Virus record (IMG/VR): IMGVR_UViG_3300033997_000136
Span: 149,151-213,150 of that record
DNA: 64,000 nucleotides
Reading direction: 5' to 3' (one strand)
From: a virus
Made by a program: the position numbers and the translations under genes. This document shows positions 30,198-64,000 of the stretch, piece by piece. The first letter of the stretch is position 1, and every line of letters starts with the position of its first letter. Below the pieces are notes generated by a model that had not been told where the DNA came from, ran no database searches, and worked only from the letters and a program-made list of their open reading frames with translations.

Positions 30198-30635
30198 ATG
30201 TCTAACCCAACTATTCAAACCATCGAAAACATTTTATCCAAAGGTGCACTGGCTGTTGTAAACTTAAGTTTACTGGATGGCTTAGAGCGTAGTCAACCTT
30301 TGTTCATCACTATCGGTAACCCACAGCACTGGGATTGCCCTGAGTTCATTATTCAAGGTTGTGAGAGTGCGATTGACGCAACCAAAGCAGCACGCGTTGC
30401 GGCAGAGTCATGGGTGCGGGCTAATCAAACGAAAGGTCAGTTCAGTGGTGTGAGTAAAGAAAACGTGTACTTTAACTTTACTCCTGAATCAACCAGCACT
30501 ACGTTTGCTGAACATGTGGATGATGCTGAAGTACAAGCGTTGTATCATACCTACGTTCGCCCTAAACGTTTAAAGCCAACTGAACCTGTTGTCCGTTTAA
30601 CAGTGTCTATTATCGCTACCGCGCAAGACCAATAA
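30198..30635 (+). CDS. Unknown 145-aa protein
   Basis: A soluble alpha/beta protein with a strand-rich middle (QPLFITIGNPQHWDCPEFIIQG) and a helix rich in alanine (DATKAARVAAESW). CGGAG precedes the ATG. It stands alone between two terminators. The beginning of the core (PLFITI) resembles the first strand of the next two proteins (PLVLTI, PVFITV), so it may be a distant member of the same local family. Confidence 0.65.
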   Translation: MSNPTIQTIENILSKGALAVVNLSLLDGLERSQPLFITIGNPQHWDCPEFIIQGCESAIDATKAARVAAESWVRANQTKGQFSGVSKENVYFNFTPESTSTTFAEHVDDAEVQALYHTYVRPKRLKPTEPVVRLTVSIIATAQDQ

Positions 30636-30642
30636 GCATACA

Positions 30643-30666
30643 AGAGAGTGGGTTAACCCACTCTCT
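30643..30666 (+). terminator. Terminator
   Basis: A perfect 24-base palindrome (AGAGAGTGGGTT and its complement), followed by a run of T, just after the gene ending at 30635. Confidence 0.85.
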
Positions 30667-30704
30667 TTTTATTTCTTTTTAATTAAAAATAAGAGAATAC
30701 AACT

Positions 30705-31265
30705 ATGTTGAAATTACTTCCCACTATTAAAGCTGTACACGCAAACATTCCATTAGTTTTAACCATTCGTGATAGTCTGTGTTCACCTGTCAAAGAGTGT
30801 ATCCTTCTACAGGACAACGAGTTGTTACCAGGCGATAAGCTTGTAAACGATGGCGTATTGACTGGGATAGAAACGAAGTTATCTAAACAATTAAAATCAG
30901 GTGTTGTTTCTATTCATCGGTTCTTTATTGATAAAGAACATGTAAGTGCTTCTACGGTTGGTGTCTTAATCATTGACCCTAAAGCGCACCTTGAATCTAC
31001 ACTGAATCGTTTTGAACATGCTGCACCCGATAAAACGTATGCGGATGTCATGACGTATGAAGAGTTTATGTACAGCACTGGTTTAAAAGATACGGTGGAT
31101 GATGTTCGTATCTACACCATGATTTGTGCCTACCGTCTCTTCGCAAAAGAGATGTTACGTTCAAACCACTGCAATCAACCTGTTTTAAATAACCGCCGTT
31201 CGTTTATGAAACTGATAGCACCAAAACAACAACGTCGTACGTCACGTGCTATTACTGCGTCTTAA
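30705..31265 (+). CDS. Unknown 186-aa protein, paralogue of the next gene
   Basis: The first 105 or so residues align with the protein at 31299: IKAVHANIPLVLTIRDS... KSGVVSIHRFF... EHVSASTVGVLIIDPKAHLES. The C-terminal 80 residues are extra: a helical part with two Cys-containing stretches and a very basic end (KQQRRTSRAITAS), which may bind nucleic acid. No family is recognised. The two genes probably arose by tandem duplication. Confidence 0.65.
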   Translation: MLKLLPTIKAVHANIPLVLTIRDSLCSPVKECILLQDNELLPGDKLVNDGVLTGIETKLSKQLKSGVVSIHRFFIDKEHVSASTVGVLIIDPKAHLESTLNRFEHAAPDKTYADVMTYEEFMYSTGLKDTVDDVRIYTMICAYRLFAKEMLRSNHCNQPVLNNRRSFMKLIAPKQQRRTSRAITAS

Positions 31266-31298
31266 TTATCAACCACTAAAATAAGAAAGGATTCCACA

Positions 31299-31718
31299 AT
31301 GGAATTAACCCCACATGTTAAAGCTGCAAACCGTCCTGTATTCATCACTGTACGTGCGAGTGTATTTGGTGAAGTAGAACAGATGTTCTTTGTAAAGCAT
31401 TCGGATGGTGACGTTAAGCACGATGTCACGAGCGATGATTTACTTCAGATTGCTGGGCGTGTTAAACAAAAAGTTAAATCTGGTCTTGTGACCATTAACA
31501 AAGTGCTGAGTCGATTTGAAGAGAAAGAACCACATGTTGTTGCGCTTGGAATGCTTATCTGTGATAAACAAGCGGATGCGCATTCAAATGCTCGTTTAAC
31601 GTTGTCGGGTGACCAACCCATAGAACCTATTGCATTGTATCTTAAAGATACGAAGTTAGCAGGTTCGTCGTACGAAGCATCATTACATCAATTAGTTGAA
31701 AAATTAAAAACGGAATAA
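31299..31718 (+). CDS. Unknown 139-aa protein, paralogue of the previous gene
   Basis: A compact version of the preceding protein: VKAANRPVFITVRAS, then KSGLVTINKVL and PHVVALGMLICDKQAD. It lacks the basic C-terminal extension and instead ends with a short acidic/basic helix. AAAGGA precedes the ATG. It ends at a terminator shared with a convergent minus-strand gene. Confidence 0.65.
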   Translation: MELTPHVKAANRPVFITVRASVFGEVEQMFFVKHSDGDVKHDVTSDDLLQIAGRVKQKVKSGLVTINKVLSRFEEKEPHVVALGMLICDKQADAHSNARLTLSGDQPIEPIALYLKDTKLAGSSYEASLHQLVEKLKTE

Positions 31719-31724
31719 GTGGAT

Positions 31725-31750
31725 AGGGAAGAGCACATGTGCTCTTCCCT
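31725..31750. terminator. Bidirectional terminator
   Basis: AGGGAAGAGCAC and its complement make a 12-bp stem with a 2-base centre, located exactly between convergent genes and touching the stop codon of the minus-strand gene. Confidence 0.75.
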
Positions 31751-32012
31751 ACACTACCCGATGATGGAACGATGTGTACTGTTCTTTTGAAAAGGCAATC
31801 GTTTGATTTGAATGCGTTACTAATATCGCACCGTCTTTTTCAAGGTAGTCACCAAGTGGTGAGTCTATCTCAAATTCGAAAGGTTCTACGTGTGGTTCTT
31901 TTGGATAAACAGTAATTGTTTCTCCATCTCGAATAACATCTTCGATTTCAACAACACGAAAGATACCTTGTAAACTTTTGAAGGGTAGTGATGTATCCGT
32001 TAACGTACTCAT
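31749..32012 (-). CDS. Small acidic unknown protein
   Basis: An 87-aa acidic protein with several short beta strands (FRVVEIEDVIRDGETITVYP; FEFEIDSPLGDYL) suggesting a small barrel. AAGGAG lies eight bases before the ATG at 32012. It is the only minus-strand gene in this stretch and diverges from the promoter motifs and candidate RNA to its right. Confidence 0.6.
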   Translation of the reverse strand: MSTLTDTSLPFKSLQGIFRVVEIEDVIRDGETITVYPKEPHVEPFEFEIDSPLGDYLEKDGAILVTHSNQTIAFSKEQYTSFHHRVV

Positions 32013-32056
32013 AATCATCACTCCTTAGAGAATCAATATAACTCCCATATGAATGA

Positions 32057-32065
32057 ACATTATTA
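32057..32065 (+). promoter_or_regulatory. Candidate early promoter motif, copy 1
   Basis: ACATTATTA, 16 bases before a second copy. The two together precede a short hairpin-rich stretch with a terminator and no gene. Confidence 0.45.
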
Positions 32066-32072
32066 GGGACAC

Positions 32073-32081
32073 ACATTATTA
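32073..32081 (+). promoter_or_regulatory. Candidate early promoter motif, copy 2
   Basis: ACATTATTA in the fuller context GGACACACATTATTA, nearly identical to the copies before the tubulin and shell-protein genes. Confidence 0.5.
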
Positions 32082-32084
32082 ATG

Positions 32085-32178
32085 GGATAAACCAGTTTAC
32101 TACGTGGGACGCTCATCCTTAACGATGAGTTTTTAAGGGGTGTTGTGTTTATTGCGGAATGCAACACCCCTTCTTTTT
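32085..32178 (+). ncRNA. Candidate small RNA with its own promoter and terminator
   Basis: No reading frame of note lies here. A first hairpin (CTCATC 32112-32117 with GATGAG 32124-32129) is followed by an 11-bp stem (AAGGGGTGTTG 32135-32145 with CAACACCCCTT 32162-32172) and CTTTTT. Two promoter-like motifs lie just upstream. The transcript would be roughly 90 bases. Ends are approximate, and the function is unknown. Confidence 0.5.
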
Positions 32179-32389
32179 AAGCCTACGTGCTATTCTAACG
32201 CATCATCTATGCCTTATGCATAGAACCACTTTACTTAAATCGTCAGTGTCTTAAAATCGATTACAGGACGTTTTACGTAACTCGTCATGTTGTGTATTCA
32301 GTAAATAAAAAAATACTGGGATATAACCTGATATGAACACTGGTCGTGTTGACCAATTTTACCCACACTAAAGAGAAAAGGAAAAGACA
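32179..32389 (+). other. Gene-free leader with small inverted repeats
   Basis: Between the candidate RNA and the gene at 32390 there is no credible gene. Visible are CTATGC/GCATAG and TGGTC/GACCA hairpins and an AT-rich tract with GATATAACCTGATATGAAC about 60 bases before the start. It probably holds the promoter and leader of the strongly expressed-looking gene at 32390. Confidence 0.4.
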
Positions 32390-32848
32390 ATGAGTCTGGA
32401 AAAAGTCACCCCGGAAATTTTAGCCTTATCAAGAGCGTTTGTTGAAAGCAAAAAACTGAACGGTGCCACCGTAGAGTTTACTTTACCTGAATCAGTGGAC
32501 CAGGCTGAAGTGTTAAAAGCAATTGACCTTATCGGCGATTTATCCTGTGCATTCACTCACGCTACCGGCGAAGTCGCACACGAAGCCTCTTTGAAAGACA
32601 AATCTATCAAAGAAGTATCTGCTGAGCTGGATTTAGGTAAACGCAAAGGCAAACCATGTATCACGCTCAAAGCCAGCTGGGAACGTGAAGTACAGGTGCC
32701 AGCAGATGCCACTGGTTCTGGTGAAAAGAAAACTGTGTATGGTCGTCTGACTCCGGCTATCACAACAACCTTCACCAAAAACAAAGGTATGATGGGCGAT
32801 ATCCGCAGCCACTGGGCTACTCTGGGTGCTGAAGCATTCGGTAAGTAA
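32390..32848 (+). CDS. Unknown 152-aa protein with high-expression codon usage
   Basis: A soluble protein with a helical N-terminal half and a Lys-rich middle (AELDLGKRKGKPCITLKASW). Codons are enriched in CTG, GCT, ATC and AAA compared with neighbours, a bias also seen in the shell and tail genes, so it is probably made in large amounts. It is alone between a long leader and a terminator. I do not recognise the family; a virion or abundant nucleus-associated protein are both possible. Confidence 0.7.
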   Translation: MSLEKVTPEILALSRAFVESKKLNGATVEFTLPESVDQAEVLKAIDLIGDLSCAFTHATGEVAHEASLKDKSIKEVSAELDLGKRKGKPCITLKASWEREVQVPADATGSGEKKTVYGRLTPAITTTFTKNKGMMGDIRSHWATLGAEAFGK

Positions 32849-33337: not shown

Positions 33338-33365
33338 AGGAGGGAGGGCAATTGCCCTCCCTCCT
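33338..33365 (+). terminator. Terminator
   Basis: A perfect 28-base palindrome centred on CAATTG, with AGGAGGGAGGG arms. It lies 21 bases after the P-loop gene. Confidence 0.75.
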
Positions 33366-33568
33366 CTCTATGTGGGTTGCATATCGTACGCCAGTTAATG
33401 AGCGCGCCATCAGCACACGGCAGCCATCAACAGGGAGAACGCTGTGTCACACACAGCCATCAGCACCAGCACGCCATACGGCAACGAATGTGTTTAGTAT
33501 CAAGTCAAAAAGTCAGCAAAATCCTTGACACAAACTGCACCACCCACATACCATATACGGAATAAGAA
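33366..33568 (+). other. Compositionally odd island between two terminators
   Basis: A stretch of about 200 bases richer in GC and CA than its surroundings. It has direct repeats GCCATCAGCAC (33406 and 33456) and CAGCCATCA (33421 and 33454), and a GCTGTGT-CAC-ACACAGC hairpin. A 62-codon frame (33377-33565) spans it, but it has no SD and an odd His/Gln/Ser-rich product, so I do not call it a gene. It could be a noncoding RNA, a protein-binding site or a decayed gene. Confidence 0.4.
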
Positions 33569-33594
33569 GTAGAGAGGGCACGTGCCCTCTCTAC
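33569..33594. terminator. Bidirectional terminator
   Basis: A perfect 26-base palindrome with arms GTAGAGAGGGCAC, located just before the stop of the minus-strand tail tube gene. Confidence 0.8.
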
Positions 33595-33604
33595 TCTTAC
33601 GCTA

Positions 33605-58718: not shown

Positions 58719-60629
58719 ATGATTAACGACGAAAACAATAAATCGACTACTCAAGCATCTGCAGCTCCTGCTGGTGGTCGCCGCGTAGAACCCATTGATC
58801 GTACTTCTGGTGCAGACCAAGTGCAACGCACTGGTCGTTTAGGTCGTAACGTAGCCCGTGGTCGCATCGGCGAAAACGTTGCTATTATTGCGGAAGCAAT
58901 GAACAAAGCGTTAGCACAAACGTCACAAAACCAGGATTATCAGCACCGCGTGTTTCCTGTGGATGCTTCGCAAATCCAAACTCACTACAGCCTGATTTTA
59001 ACAACTGCTGAAATCGCTGTCGGTTCTCGTAAAGTCGTCACTGTGTGTACACTGATGGCTGCTGGTTCTAACAAGACGCCAGCGTCTCAACGTATCCACA
59101 TCGGTCGTGACCAAATCGCTGAACGTATCGTTGTTCCAGGCGATGGTTGGGATTTGAAGACTTGGGAAAAAGTGCAAGCACACGTGCTGCGTTTAGTTGG
59201 TGGCTCTAACCAAAACAACATCGAAGTCGTGAATGCTGGTTGTATCGTTATCCCTGAAGACTTCACAGTCGAAGACGCTAACGCTATCCAGGACATTCTG
59301 TGGGCTTCTACAGAAGCAACTGCTGCCGTTATCGAACAACAGTTCCCGAACGTATTCCCGGTATTCACTGTATCTGATTCACTTCGCAAAGACTCGCAGA
59401 AGCTGGTCGGTGTGTGGTCTGAAGATTACACAGGCGTTATCATGGATGAGATTGGTCGCCCAATCCGTTCTGACCTGAAAGTATCTGTGACTGTACAGCC
59501 GCGTGTTGAAAACCAAAACAGTGTATCTGGCTTCATGCATGAAAATGTTGAAGAACTGTGTACTGCTGCCGGTTATGTTGATTTGATCTTCACCCCACAA
59601 GACCCGGAACCTGCTGGTGCTCGTTACCGTCAACAGCAAGCACCTACCCAACAGTTTACGCCACGTATCATCATCACTAAGCTGACTGCTCCAGTGCTGA
59701 CTACTGAAACGATGCTGTTAGGTCTGGTAAACTTCTTCCTGGTCGGCGACGATTACCAATGGGCAAACCGTTTCCGTCGTGCCCACGGTAAACTGGATAA
59801 CATCGGTGCGTTAGGTTATTTAATTCCTAACCCTGAGAATCCAGATGAGTCTATGGGTAAAATCGATACCGGTGCTGCATTAAGCGATCGCGATTTTGCA
59901 AACTTAATCACCACAGTGATTGAGCATGACCCTGTGTTCTCTATTCACTGCAGTGAAACTGGTCCAGATAGCTGGTTAACAGGTATCTTCCAGGCGGCTG
60001 CTATCGAAAACACTGAGCAAATGATCAACCGTCCAAATGACCCTGAGTTCATGGGACCTGCAAACCAAGCCATTATCCAGGCGATGGACAATCTGTTCGA
60101 CAATCAGTTCTCTCCAATCTGGGGTAACCGTCCAGTCGTACACTTAGACCAAAACCGTTTAATCTATGGTACATACACTGGTCCTGAAGGCGACTTACGT
60201 GACAAACGTGATATCGACCAACTGGCCGTGTTAAACGAAGCTGGTGCTGGTAACTTAGACCTGTTCTTCGACTACGCCGCAACCTATGACGCTATCGATG
60301 TTCCAATGGACGTTCGTCTGGATACTCGTAACCGTCTGGAACGCAGCATGTCTCCGAAGAACATGAAACACGAAGGCTATATCGAAGTGGTTAACTTCGC
60401 TGCTGACTTCGCTGCTGTAGCTATCTCAGCCGCTGCTGCTGCTGATTACGCTGTAGAAGTTTCTGGTCTGACGCCGCTGTATCAACAAACTACAACCCGT
60501 GGTAACCGTTACTTAGGTCAGTTCCGTAGCCATGGCTTAGGCGCTAACCGTTTACATCAACAAAACAACGTTGGTGGTGGTAGCAACTACGGTGGTACTT
60601 ACCGTTCGTACAACCGCTTCGGTCGTTAA
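58719..60629 (+). CDS. chmA: Chimallin-like nuclear shell protein (phiKZ gp54 type)
   Basis: A 636-aa protein, almost the same length as the shell proteins of 201phi2-1 and Goslar (about 630 aa). It has flexible ends, a Ser/Thr/Ala/Arg-rich N-terminus and an Arg/Gly/Asn-rich C-tail (about residues 600-636, ending NRFGR), as expected for the segments that lock protomers into the lattice, around a folded core of about 520 residues. Codons are the most host-optimised in the window (CTG, GCT, ATC, CGT), as needed for a very abundant early product. The next gene is the nvRNAP beta' N-half, the phiKZ gp54-gp55 order. The lattice would enclose replicating DNA and exclude host nucleases. Alternative: another abundant virion protein. 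ACGGAG precedes the ATG. Confidence 0.75.
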   Translation: MINDENNKSTTQASAAPAGGRRVEPIDRTSGADQVQRTGRLGRNVARGRIGENVAIIAEAMNKALAQTSQNQDYQHRVFPVDASQIQTHYSLILTTAEIAVGSRKVVTVCTLMAAGSNKTPASQRIHIGRDQIAERIVVPGDGWDLKTWEKVQAHVLRLVGGSNQNNIEVVNAGCIVIPEDFTVEDANAIQDILWASTEATAAVIEQQFPNVFPVFTVSDSLRKDSQKLVGVWSEDYTGVIMDEIGRPIRSDLKVSVTVQPRVENQNSVSGFMHENVEELCTAAGYVDLIFTPQDPEPAGARYRQQQAPTQQFTPRIIITKLTAPVLTTETMLLGLVNFFLVGDDYQWANRFRRAHGKLDNIGALGYLIPNPENPDESMGKIDTGAALSDRDFANLITTVIEHDPVFSIHCSETGPDSWLTGIFQAAAIENTEQMINRPNDPEFMGPANQAIIQAMDNLFDNQFSPIWGNRPVVHLDQNRLIYGTYTGPEGDLRDKRDIDQLAVLNEAGAGNLDLFFDYAATYDAIDVPMDVRLDTRNRLERSMSPKNMKHEGYIEVVNFAADFAAVAISAAAAADYAVEVSGLTPLYQQTTTRGNRYLGQFRSHGLGANRLHQQNNVGGGSNYGGTYRSYNRFGR

Positions 60630-60751: not shown

Positions 60752-62275
60752 GTGAGCCATTATATCGATGCCTCAGTACGTGGCGGTGTAGTACCCAAGT
60801 TCCAACCTCAAAAACAACGTTATTCTGGAATATTCTTATCAGTCCCAAACCTAGACCGCGATTATGAACAAGTAGCACATCAAGCGCGCATCATTAACCA
60901 CATTGATGCAAAAGACCCTGTGAAGATGGAAGCGTTGAATCGTCAACTCTATGTGCAATTCGAAGGTGATATCCTCGATACCACACCTAGTTGTGATTGT
61001 GGTCGCTTTCGTGGTCAACACAAAGTAGGTCTTGTGTGTCGCCCTGAACATGGTGTACGTGATGATGGTTCGTACTGTTACACTGAAGTTGCTAGTATTA
61101 CAGAACGTCCTATGGAAAGTATTTTGTGGATGACCACCCCAAAAGGGATTCATCGCTTAGTCGTTCCACGGGTATGGTTCATGTTAAGTAACTTCTTTAA
61201 GTCAGATAAGTTTAGTCCTATGGATTATCTTGCTGACCCAACGTACAGAACAAGTGACCTGCGTTCAATTGCTCGTTTAAAAGAGTTATTGGATACTGGG
61301 TGGAAACGTGGGTTAAATCAGTTTATTGAACGATTTGACGAAGCCATGGAGTTCTTAATTAAAAACCGGTTTGGGAGTGCAAAAGATGCGCAACCTCGCG
61401 AGCATTTAATTAAGTACATTGAAATGCATCGTGATAAGTTCTTTCCGCGTTACATCCCTATTCCTAACCGTGCTGTTCTTATTATTGAGAAAACACCATT
61501 AGGAACGTGGACTGACCCAACGTTGTCGTTTGGTTTAAATGCAGTACGAACAATATGTTCAATCGAAAACTCATTTATACCGTTAACACCGCGACAAATA
61601 GAGAACGCAACAATCCGTGCTATTCGTCAGTTAGCTGATTATTACGACCAGTACATCAATCGTAACGTCAGTAAGAAACCAGGTATTGCTAGACGTCAAC
61701 TTGCTGGTGGTCGATTAGACTTCTCAGCACGTGCAGTTATTAGTAGTATTCCAGGTCGACATCAATACGACGAAGTGCATATTCCGTGGGGCGTGGGTGT
61801 GATGATGTTAAAGTCACACATCACAAGTAAGTTACTTCATAGACGATATACTCCACGTCAAGCTGAAGAACTTATCTCGTTGTACACAAAACGGTATCAT
61901 CCCGTGTTAGATGAAGTTATGCAGGAACTTATCGATGAATCGCCTTATAAAGCGCTTCCTTGTATTCTCCAGCGTAACCCTACATTGACACGTGGTAGTG
62001 CTCAGTTGTTATACATTACCAAAGTTCAAACAGACCCGCGTATTAATACGTTTGCGTTTAGTGTTCTTGTACTTGCTGCATGTAACGCGGATTTCGATGG
62101 TGATGAGTTGAACATGGAGCTTCTACTGGATAGAGAAGAGCATGATAACTTTTATCGGTTATCTCCTCATTTGTATCTTTTAGATACACAGGAACCACGT
62201 AGAGTGTCTGGATTTGTAAAGATACCTGCACCTGTGATGCAAACCATCATCAACTTCATTCACGAGTTTGATTAA
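60752..62275 (+). CDS. Non-virion RNA polymerase beta' subunit, N-terminal half (phiKZ gp55-like)
   Basis: A 507-aa beta'-like protein with the catalytic loop NADFDGDELNMEL (from residue 445; D447, D449 and D451 hold magnesium). An upstream CGRFRGQHKVGLVCRPEHG stretch (about 87-105) is in the place of the beta' zinc-binding region, though with altered cysteine spacing. RQLAGGRLDFSARAVISS (about 314-331) matches the conserved [22 protein letters not shown] element. I prefer the GTG at 60752 because AAGGAGAG lies six bases upstream; the ATG at 60719 is poorly placed. As in phiKZ, the C-terminal half of beta' is not here. The non-virion polymerase makes late mRNA. Confidence 0.88.
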   Translation: MSHYIDASVRGGVVPKFQPQKQRYSGIFLSVPNLDRDYEQVAHQARIINHIDAKDPVKMEALNRQLYVQFEGDILDTTPSCDCGRFRGQHKVGLVCRPEHGVRDDGSYCYTEVASITERPMESILWMTTPKGIHRLVVPRVWFMLSNFFKSDKFSPMDYLADPTYRTSDLRSIARLKELLDTGWKRGLNQFIERFDEAMEFLIKNRFGSAKDAQPREHLIKYIEMHRDKFFPRYIPIPNRAVLIIEKTPLGTWTDPTLSFGLNAVRTICSIENSFIPLTPRQIENATIRAIRQLADYYDQYINRNVSKKPGIARRQLAGGRLDFSARAVISSIPGRHQYDEVHIPWGVGVMMLKSHITSKLLHRRYTPRQAEELISLYTKRYHPVLDEVMQELIDESPYKALPCILQRNPTLTRGSAQLLYITKVQTDPRINTFAFSVLVLAACNADFDGDELNMELLLDREEHDNFYRLSPHLYLLDTQEPRRVSGFVKIPAPVMQTIINFIHEFD

Positions 62276-62907: not shown

Positions 62908-62916
62908 CCTAATAAC

Positions 62917-62947
62917 GAGAAGGGGTAACCCCCTTCTCTTATTTTTT
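62917..62947 (+). terminator. Terminator
   Basis: GAGAAGGGG/CCCCTTCTC 9-bp stem with a short loop, followed by six T. Confidence 0.85.
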
Positions 62948-62955
62948 GACGGGAC

Positions 62956-63357
62956 ATGAACATGGCGAAGTTATTAGCAACATTGGATACAGGTGGGTGG
63001 GTGCGAGACCCATTAACAATTGCAACGAAGTTAATGGATTACTATAAAGCAACAGAACACTCACAGTCCAATGAGTTTCAAGCAACAACGTATTCATTGG
63101 CGTATTTAGTCCAACAATACGGAAATAAACCTGAAGACTTTGCCAGTAATATGGAACGAGAGTTGCAAAGCATATTCGGTTCACATTTTGAAATGGCGAC
63201 CGTAAGTGTTAGACCCAATAAAGAAGGTGACGAAAATGGATACTTTGGTGTAGATATCGATGTAAAAATCCAGCAGGGTGGAGAAAACTATTCCCTCGGT
63301 GCTTTACTCATTACATCGTCCAGTAACGTCATTAGTTATCAAATCAAAACTGCTTAG
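62956..63357 (+). CDS. Unknown 133-aa protein
   Basis: A soluble protein, helical at first (DPLTIATKLMDYYKATEHSQ) and beta-rich at the end (GENYSLGALLITSSSNVISYQI), with an acidic Gly/Asp turn region in between (NKEGDENGYFGVDIDV). Weak SD (ACGGGAC). A second ATG at 62962 is also possible. Layout recalls phage wedge or baseplate small proteins, but no family is confirmed. Confidence 0.6.
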   Translation: MNMAKLLATLDTGGWVRDPLTIATKLMDYYKATEHSQSNEFQATTYSLAYLVQQYGNKPEDFASNMERELQSIFGSHFEMATVSVRPNKEGDENGYFGVDIDVKIQQGGENYSLGALLITSSSNVISYQIKTA

Positions 63358-63375
63358 TAAAAGGTATTAAAAGTC

Positions 63376-63957
63376 ATGCAAATCCAATTAGATTTACGGA
63401 ACCATTTGATTACTCGTTTAAATCAGTTACAGGCGAATGCAAACAATCTCGCCCATCAACTTGAACACATGGTTACTGAAATTCAAGAAGTCAGTAAAGT
63501 GATTATGACTATCCCAGCGGTGATGTCTGAAGCTCAGATGCAACAAATCATAGACAACATTCAACAGAATGGTGATATTGTTTTCTCAACTGACTTTAAC
63601 CGAGCCACAGCATTGGGTTTTATTACTCACCATATTGAAGATGGTTCGCCGATTTATACATTTGAGTCAGTCCACACTGAAATCACCGTAGAGACTGCTC
63701 CAATCTATCAACGTCTGACCGAGATGTACTCTGCCGACATTAAAGCAATTATGGACGCAACAGGCAGCACAACAGTTTGGTTCTATGTAAAACCAAAACC
63801 AGTCCCTGTTGTGGATGATACCCACGTAGTACAACAAACAACTGAACAGGTTGCTGTTGAAGCAGTGAAAACTGAAACAACCAATGTGGTTGTTGAATCT
63901 CAAAACGTAACGGACCCAGTCCAAATTAACACAGCCGATGGCGGCACATCAGAATAA
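63376..63957 (+). CDS. Unknown 193-aa coiled-coil protein
   Basis: A helical coiled-coil N-terminus (residues 5-50, LRNHLITRLNQLQANANNLAHQ) leads into a mixed middle and a long Val/Thr/Gln-rich, probably disordered tail (about 150-193). AAAAGG precedes the ATG. It follows the previous gene by 18 bases. Function unknown; oligomerisation through the coiled coil is likely. Confidence 0.6.
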   Translation: MQIQLDLRNHLITRLNQLQANANNLAHQLEHMVTEIQEVSKVIMTIPAVMSEAQMQQIIDNIQQNGDIVFSTDFNRATALGFITHHIEDGSPIYTFESVHTEITVETAPIYQRLTEMYSADIKAIMDATGSTTVWFYVKPKPVPVVDDTHVVQQTTEQVAVEAVKTETTNVVVESQNVTDPVQINTADGGTSE

Positions 63958-63964
63958 ATAATAC

Positions 63965-63990
63965 GGACTCAGAGCATCCTCTGAGTCCTT
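63965..63990 (+). terminator. Terminator
   Basis: GGACTCAGAG/CTCTGAGTCC 10-bp stem with a CATC loop right after the last gene; the T-run is short. Confidence 0.7.
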
Positions 63991-64000
63991 AACCTTGTAT

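Follow-up and report, generated by a model that had tools for sequence, protein, structure and literature searches.

A predicted short terminated leader RNA behind an early promoter in a phiKZ-like phage

In this study we describe a noncoding interval (32013-32389) between two flanking genes of a phage genome. Coordinates at the locus refer to the window, that is, the whole stretch of 64,000 nucleotides that was analysed, which covers bases 149151-213150 of a 213,150-base virus record; genes were called with a simple in-house caller. On the minus strand a divergent gene for 87 amino acids (31749-32012, coding score 33) borders the interval, and its product gave no match in PHROGs or Pfam. On the plus strand follows a conserved, putatively early gene for 152 amino acids (32390-32848), kin to Goslar_00221 (34%, E 2e-11) and to Eowyn gp194 (E 8e-6). 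The structure prediction for this protein (pLDDT 48) was too low in confidence for use. Between the two genes we found an early-type promoter, a small hairpin and an intrinsic terminator, all on the plus strand.

On its gene content the 213-kb phage is phiKZ-like and nucleus-forming, because relatives of ChmA, PhuZ and three RNA polymerase subunits of Klebsiella phage Eowyn are encoded in it; the initial annotation, which had spoken of a nucleus-forming phage, is supported on this point. The tail sheath shows 39% identity to that of Erwinia phage pEa_SNUABM_54. The contig ends (contig 1-1085 and window 62916-64000) have 1085 bases in common at 97% identity, the two copies thus differing, and the record is therefore close to complete. 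Neither blastn against the phage collection nor IMG/VR yielded a near relative of the locus, and IMG/VR searches that started from the phage's own flanking protein or tail sheath returned no relatives. All evidence presented here is sequence inference from this one contig.

From k-mers enriched upstream of the phage's genes we derived an early promoter motif, AAACATACATTAT-NNNNNN-G. Its strong sites, about 20 in the genome, are without exception intergenic and on the plus strand. At the locus an early promoter of the virion RNA polymerase type (32063-32088, plus strand) is predicted, with the core ACACACATTAT at 32069-32079, a six-base spacer and a predicted +1 G at 32086; the site agrees with the phage's own early consensus, including the G at six-base spacing (TTAT-TAATGG-G). 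When scored with a matrix trained on 18 other early promoters, the 32069 site itself being left out, the core reached 20.3 and ranked 18th genome-wide. All sites with better scores lie on the plus strand in intergenic regions, the genome-wide matrix scan gave no minus-strand site as good as this core, and 5 Mb of Markov sequence contained no equal to its score. The same motif precedes ChmA (in two copies) and PhuZ, both of which are early genes in phiKZ-like phages, and this supports its identity as an early promoter. Judged by its sequence, the 32069 site is a promoter of the phage's early class, and the word 'early' in the initial annotation can be kept. The annotation had also listed another promoter motif, ACATTATTA (32057-32065, plus strand). 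This is a chance-level match (score 1.3, rank 439, 0.18 expected by chance in the stretch) and was rejected, leaving one promoter in place of two. A sigma-70 scan of 32057-32178 found no promoter.

In AR9 and other jumbo phages, promoters of the virion polymerase combine an AT-rich core with a start at a G that lies six bases downstream (PMC5312081, PMC7598289). We set +1 at 32086 following the 6N-G rule, which is given for AR9, phiKZ and phiR1-37 (PMC5312081). The 32069 site resembles the early promoters of these three phages in its conserved AT-rich core of about 10 nt and in the position of the +1 G (PMC5312081, PMC7598289). It differs from them in two respects: the consensus in the present phage is AAACATACATTAT, unlike their TATATTAC-type, and at 32069 a terminator stands between promoter and gene.

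Downstream of the predicted start a small hairpin, GCUCAUC-CUUAAC-GAUGAGU, is followed by U5 (32111-32130, plus strand; 7 pairs by folding), which is also a weak terminator-like site. It precedes an intrinsic terminator (32135-32178, plus strand, -22.9 kcal/mol) with a 16-pair stem (32135-32172) and the tail CTTTTT, i.e. a GC-rich stem and then a U tract as in intrinsic terminators. Six of the 16 pairs are G-C, 11 uninterrupted Watson-Crick pairs form the base, and in strength this terminator takes the 20th place among 78 intergenic terminators in the genome. The 49 nt ahead of it fold modestly better than shuffles (z -2.1), and the whole element folds at z -4.7. Both the small hairpin and the strong 11-bp terminator of the initial annotation are thus borne out. 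From promoter and terminator a short terminated RNA of about 93 nt (32086-32178, plus strand) is predicted, which agrees with the 'about 90 bases' expected earlier. There is also, as had been claimed, no gene between promoter and terminator, and 32086-32390 holds no ORF with a Shine-Dalgarno sequence. The rest of the leader, from the terminator to the start codon of gene 32390 (32179-32389, plus strand, 211 nt), has no early-promoter match and folds at z -1.95.

This layout is rare. Of the 21 early promoters in this phage, only that at 32069 has a terminator within 250 nt downstream, and by the same scan none of 36 early leaders in Goslar (12 promoters) and Eowyn (24) has a terminator that separates promoter from gene. 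At the other early promoters of the phage the gene starts 28-74 nt past the start site, except at the more upstream of the two tandem ChmA promoters, and compared with these leaders the 211 nt past the terminator are long. At none of the other orphan terminators of the genome (61304, 145383 and others) does an early promoter stand immediately in front with no gene in between. The terminator AAGGGGTGTTATCACCCCTTCTTTTTTT at contig 61193-61340 is closely like the one at 32135 and comes after another hairpin behind a 75-aa gene.

Via the Goslar and Eowyn proteins the family of gene 32390 reaches many phages, where it usually lies in the region from the head maturation protease to the tail sheath. 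An early-type promoter was found 74-131 nt before the start codon in 10 of the 13 phages examined, and these ten fall in about five lineages. In Goslar and Eowyn a motif scan placed it 131 and 109 nt ahead of the gene, respectively. Outside these two, cores were found by short-string match only: KpGz_1, KpHz_2, sm033, pir03, SNUABM_37, SA002, Ea35-70 and AH06 carry a TATATTAC or TATATAAC core 74-109 nt upstream, and SNUABM_54, LucasX and Proteus phage 10 have neither core ahead of the gene. Several relatives' leaders bear hairpins. A terminator after the promoter is absent from all relatives' leaders inspected, and so is the long spacer. Because relatives pair promoter with gene, and because the window holds no other early promoter in 32090-32385, the promoter at 32069 is most likely gene 32390's own. 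The simplest reading would then be that a terminator has been placed in the 304-nt leader of gene 32390 and is specific to this phage's lineage. With an early promoter conserved ahead of it in many nucleus-forming phages, the gene 32390 family is a candidate for early takeover functions.

We consider it somewhat probable that the element forms the 5' leader of gene 32390, a conserved early gene, and that a terminator truncates this leader, so that an RNA of about 93 nt is made and read-through into the gene is reduced. The promoter class, the terminator, the gene-free interval and the promoter-gene pairing in relatives are computed features of the DNA. On infection the injected virion RNA polymerase would start at about 32086 at the early promoter, transcribe about 93 nt and mostly halt at 32173-32178, and a two-hairpin RNA would be released. 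Full-length transcript of gene 32390 would come only from read-through or from some later promoter. We infer from these features transcription itself, the efficiency of termination, the identity of the polymerase and whatever the RNA may do apart from lowering early 32390 expression. The length of the 211 nt that follow the terminator speaks against a terminated leader, as it would be compatible with a separate RNA gene as well.

Bacterial attenuators are terminated leader RNAs with an early stop ahead of a gene, and the early stop predicted for the present leader is what it has in common with them. The leader differs from them in that it has no antiterminator above chance, no leader peptide with a Shine-Dalgarno sequence, and no known ligand or Rfam family. 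An alternative fold does engage the 5' arm of the terminator before the 3' arm is made. However, shuffled leaders offer this arm pairing of equal quality (p about 0.4), so that regulated antitermination is not supported; a leader peptide was likewise rejected.

Possible targets were sought among phage mRNAs. Target prediction, which the initial annotation had suggested as a check, gave no enrichment of duplex energies over shuffles in 229 phage start regions. Gene 79355-80020 (contig coordinates) contains a 15-nt perfect complement in its coding region; the match falls away from the start region, is no rarity in a search of this size, and was rejected as a target. Near the hairpin loop AUCCUUA resembles an anti-Shine-Dalgarno sequence, but since this would be expected in 19% of intergenic 49-mers and in 34% of shuffles, it was likewise set aside. 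Rfam gave nothing at the gathering threshold in the window (the best hit, E 2.2, was a plant snoRNA on the other strand), a tRNA search found none, and a replication origin was discarded because the GC skew does not switch at the locus.

In the initial annotation the element was taken for a stand-alone small RNA. One part of this stands, since a short terminated RNA is expected from a promoter and a terminator without an ORF; independence from gene 32390 is not supported, given the early promoter upstream of its relatives. As an RNA gene in its own right, the conserved early promoter would now serve a dedicated RNA of about 93 nt that binds a protein or pairs with mRNAs of the phage or the host, and a later promoter of its own would drive gene 32390. 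The compact promoter-hairpin-terminator layout without an ORF, ending 211 nt before the next gene, is in keeping with this, and the related phage phiR1-37 has one reported intergenic sRNA (PMC4848604). It is a possible but unlikely explanation, however, since the promoter-gene pairing in relatives assigns the promoter to gene 32390, predicted pairing with phage start regions does not surpass that of shuffled controls and AUCCUUA occurs at chance frequency. We regard it as quite improbable that a terminator placed behind a conserved early-gene promoter has created a dedicated regulatory RNA for the early phase, which the injected virion polymerase would make in the first minutes after infection, ahead of phage nucleus formation, and which would act in trans on host or phage mRNAs.

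It might also be that the block is a relic or neutral. This lineage could have gained a terminator that shut off early 32390 expression, or it could have lost an early gene that once lay between promoter and terminator, and the RNA would be functionless. The terminator and the long spacer are peculiar to this phage among the relatives inspected, no target, antiterminator or strong pre-terminator structure was found, and the head protease-to-sheath region is variable, all of which would suit such a history. Yet a promoter that matches the consensus well and an intact terminator stem would be expected of selected elements, and we think this explanation rather unlikely. Blastn found no homologs of the promoter-hairpin-terminator element itself in phages; the Markov and shuffle controls speak to chance, not to function. 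A promoter-like string arisen by chance, with transcription only to gene 32390 or none at all, is highly improbable, as its held-out score is unequalled in the Markov sequence and the promoter position is conserved in relatives.

The initial annotation called phage-encoded sRNAs little known in nucleus-forming phages. This is fair, though with exceptions: phiKZ has two reported ncRNAs, one of them a 5'-UTR RNA (PMC8545117). This 5'UTR-p40 ncRNA (Gerovac et al. 2021) comprises the first 180 nt of a long 5' UTR with two stem-loops, the second of which is proposed to end transcription before the start codon; it contains no small ORF and is seen on Northern blots beside the longer mRNA (PMC8545117). 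According to the authors, TSS mapping did not predict their ncRNAs (PMC8545117). By analogy, 5'UTR-p40 would be the closest known system, and 32086-32178 may be an RNA of like kind: both belong to nucleus-forming phiKZ-like phages, begin at a 5'-UTR start, have two stem-loops, lack a small ORF and would end before the start codon. The phiKZ RNA has about 180 nt and is seen on Northern blots, whereas about 93 nt are predicted from sequence here. The p40 UTR has no TATATTAC early promoter, and p40 is a protein of 31 aa encoded at another locus, compared with 152 aa for gene 32390. In phiR1-37, a phage with uracil DNA, misc_4 is an intergenic sRNA of about 300 nt reported from RNA-seq (PMC4848604). 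It is like the present element in being noncoding, without an ORF, between genes of a phiKZ-related jumbo phage; it is longer than the RNA of about 93 nt predicted here. For phiKZ-like phages only a few noncoding RNAs are on record, and a promoter-terminator pair that is recognizable in the sequence offers a precise and cheap target for Northern blots or RNA-seq.

Several other features of the genome were noted. The ChmA gene (58719-60629) has two tandem early promoters at window 58518 and 58644, and Eowyn ChmA has a like tandem arrangement (52032 and 52108); from these sequences, doubled early promoters ahead of ChmA may be conserved. A cluster of small genes (window 30198-31718) lies behind a weaker early promoter (30147), and two of its genes, 30705 and 31299, are paralogs (30% identity, E 3e-8). 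The string CCCCAC occurs just before start codons in 8 regions compared with 1.0 expected, mostly in early leaders, e.g. those of genes 30198 and 49095. Among relatives the stretch between protease and sheath varies. Finally, perfect loopless palindromes of 18-32 bp stand at gene ends (window 31724-31751, 33338-33365 and 33568-33595; also 57292 and others in the genome), often preceded by a GA(C)GGAATAA-like string, and may be two-way terminators.
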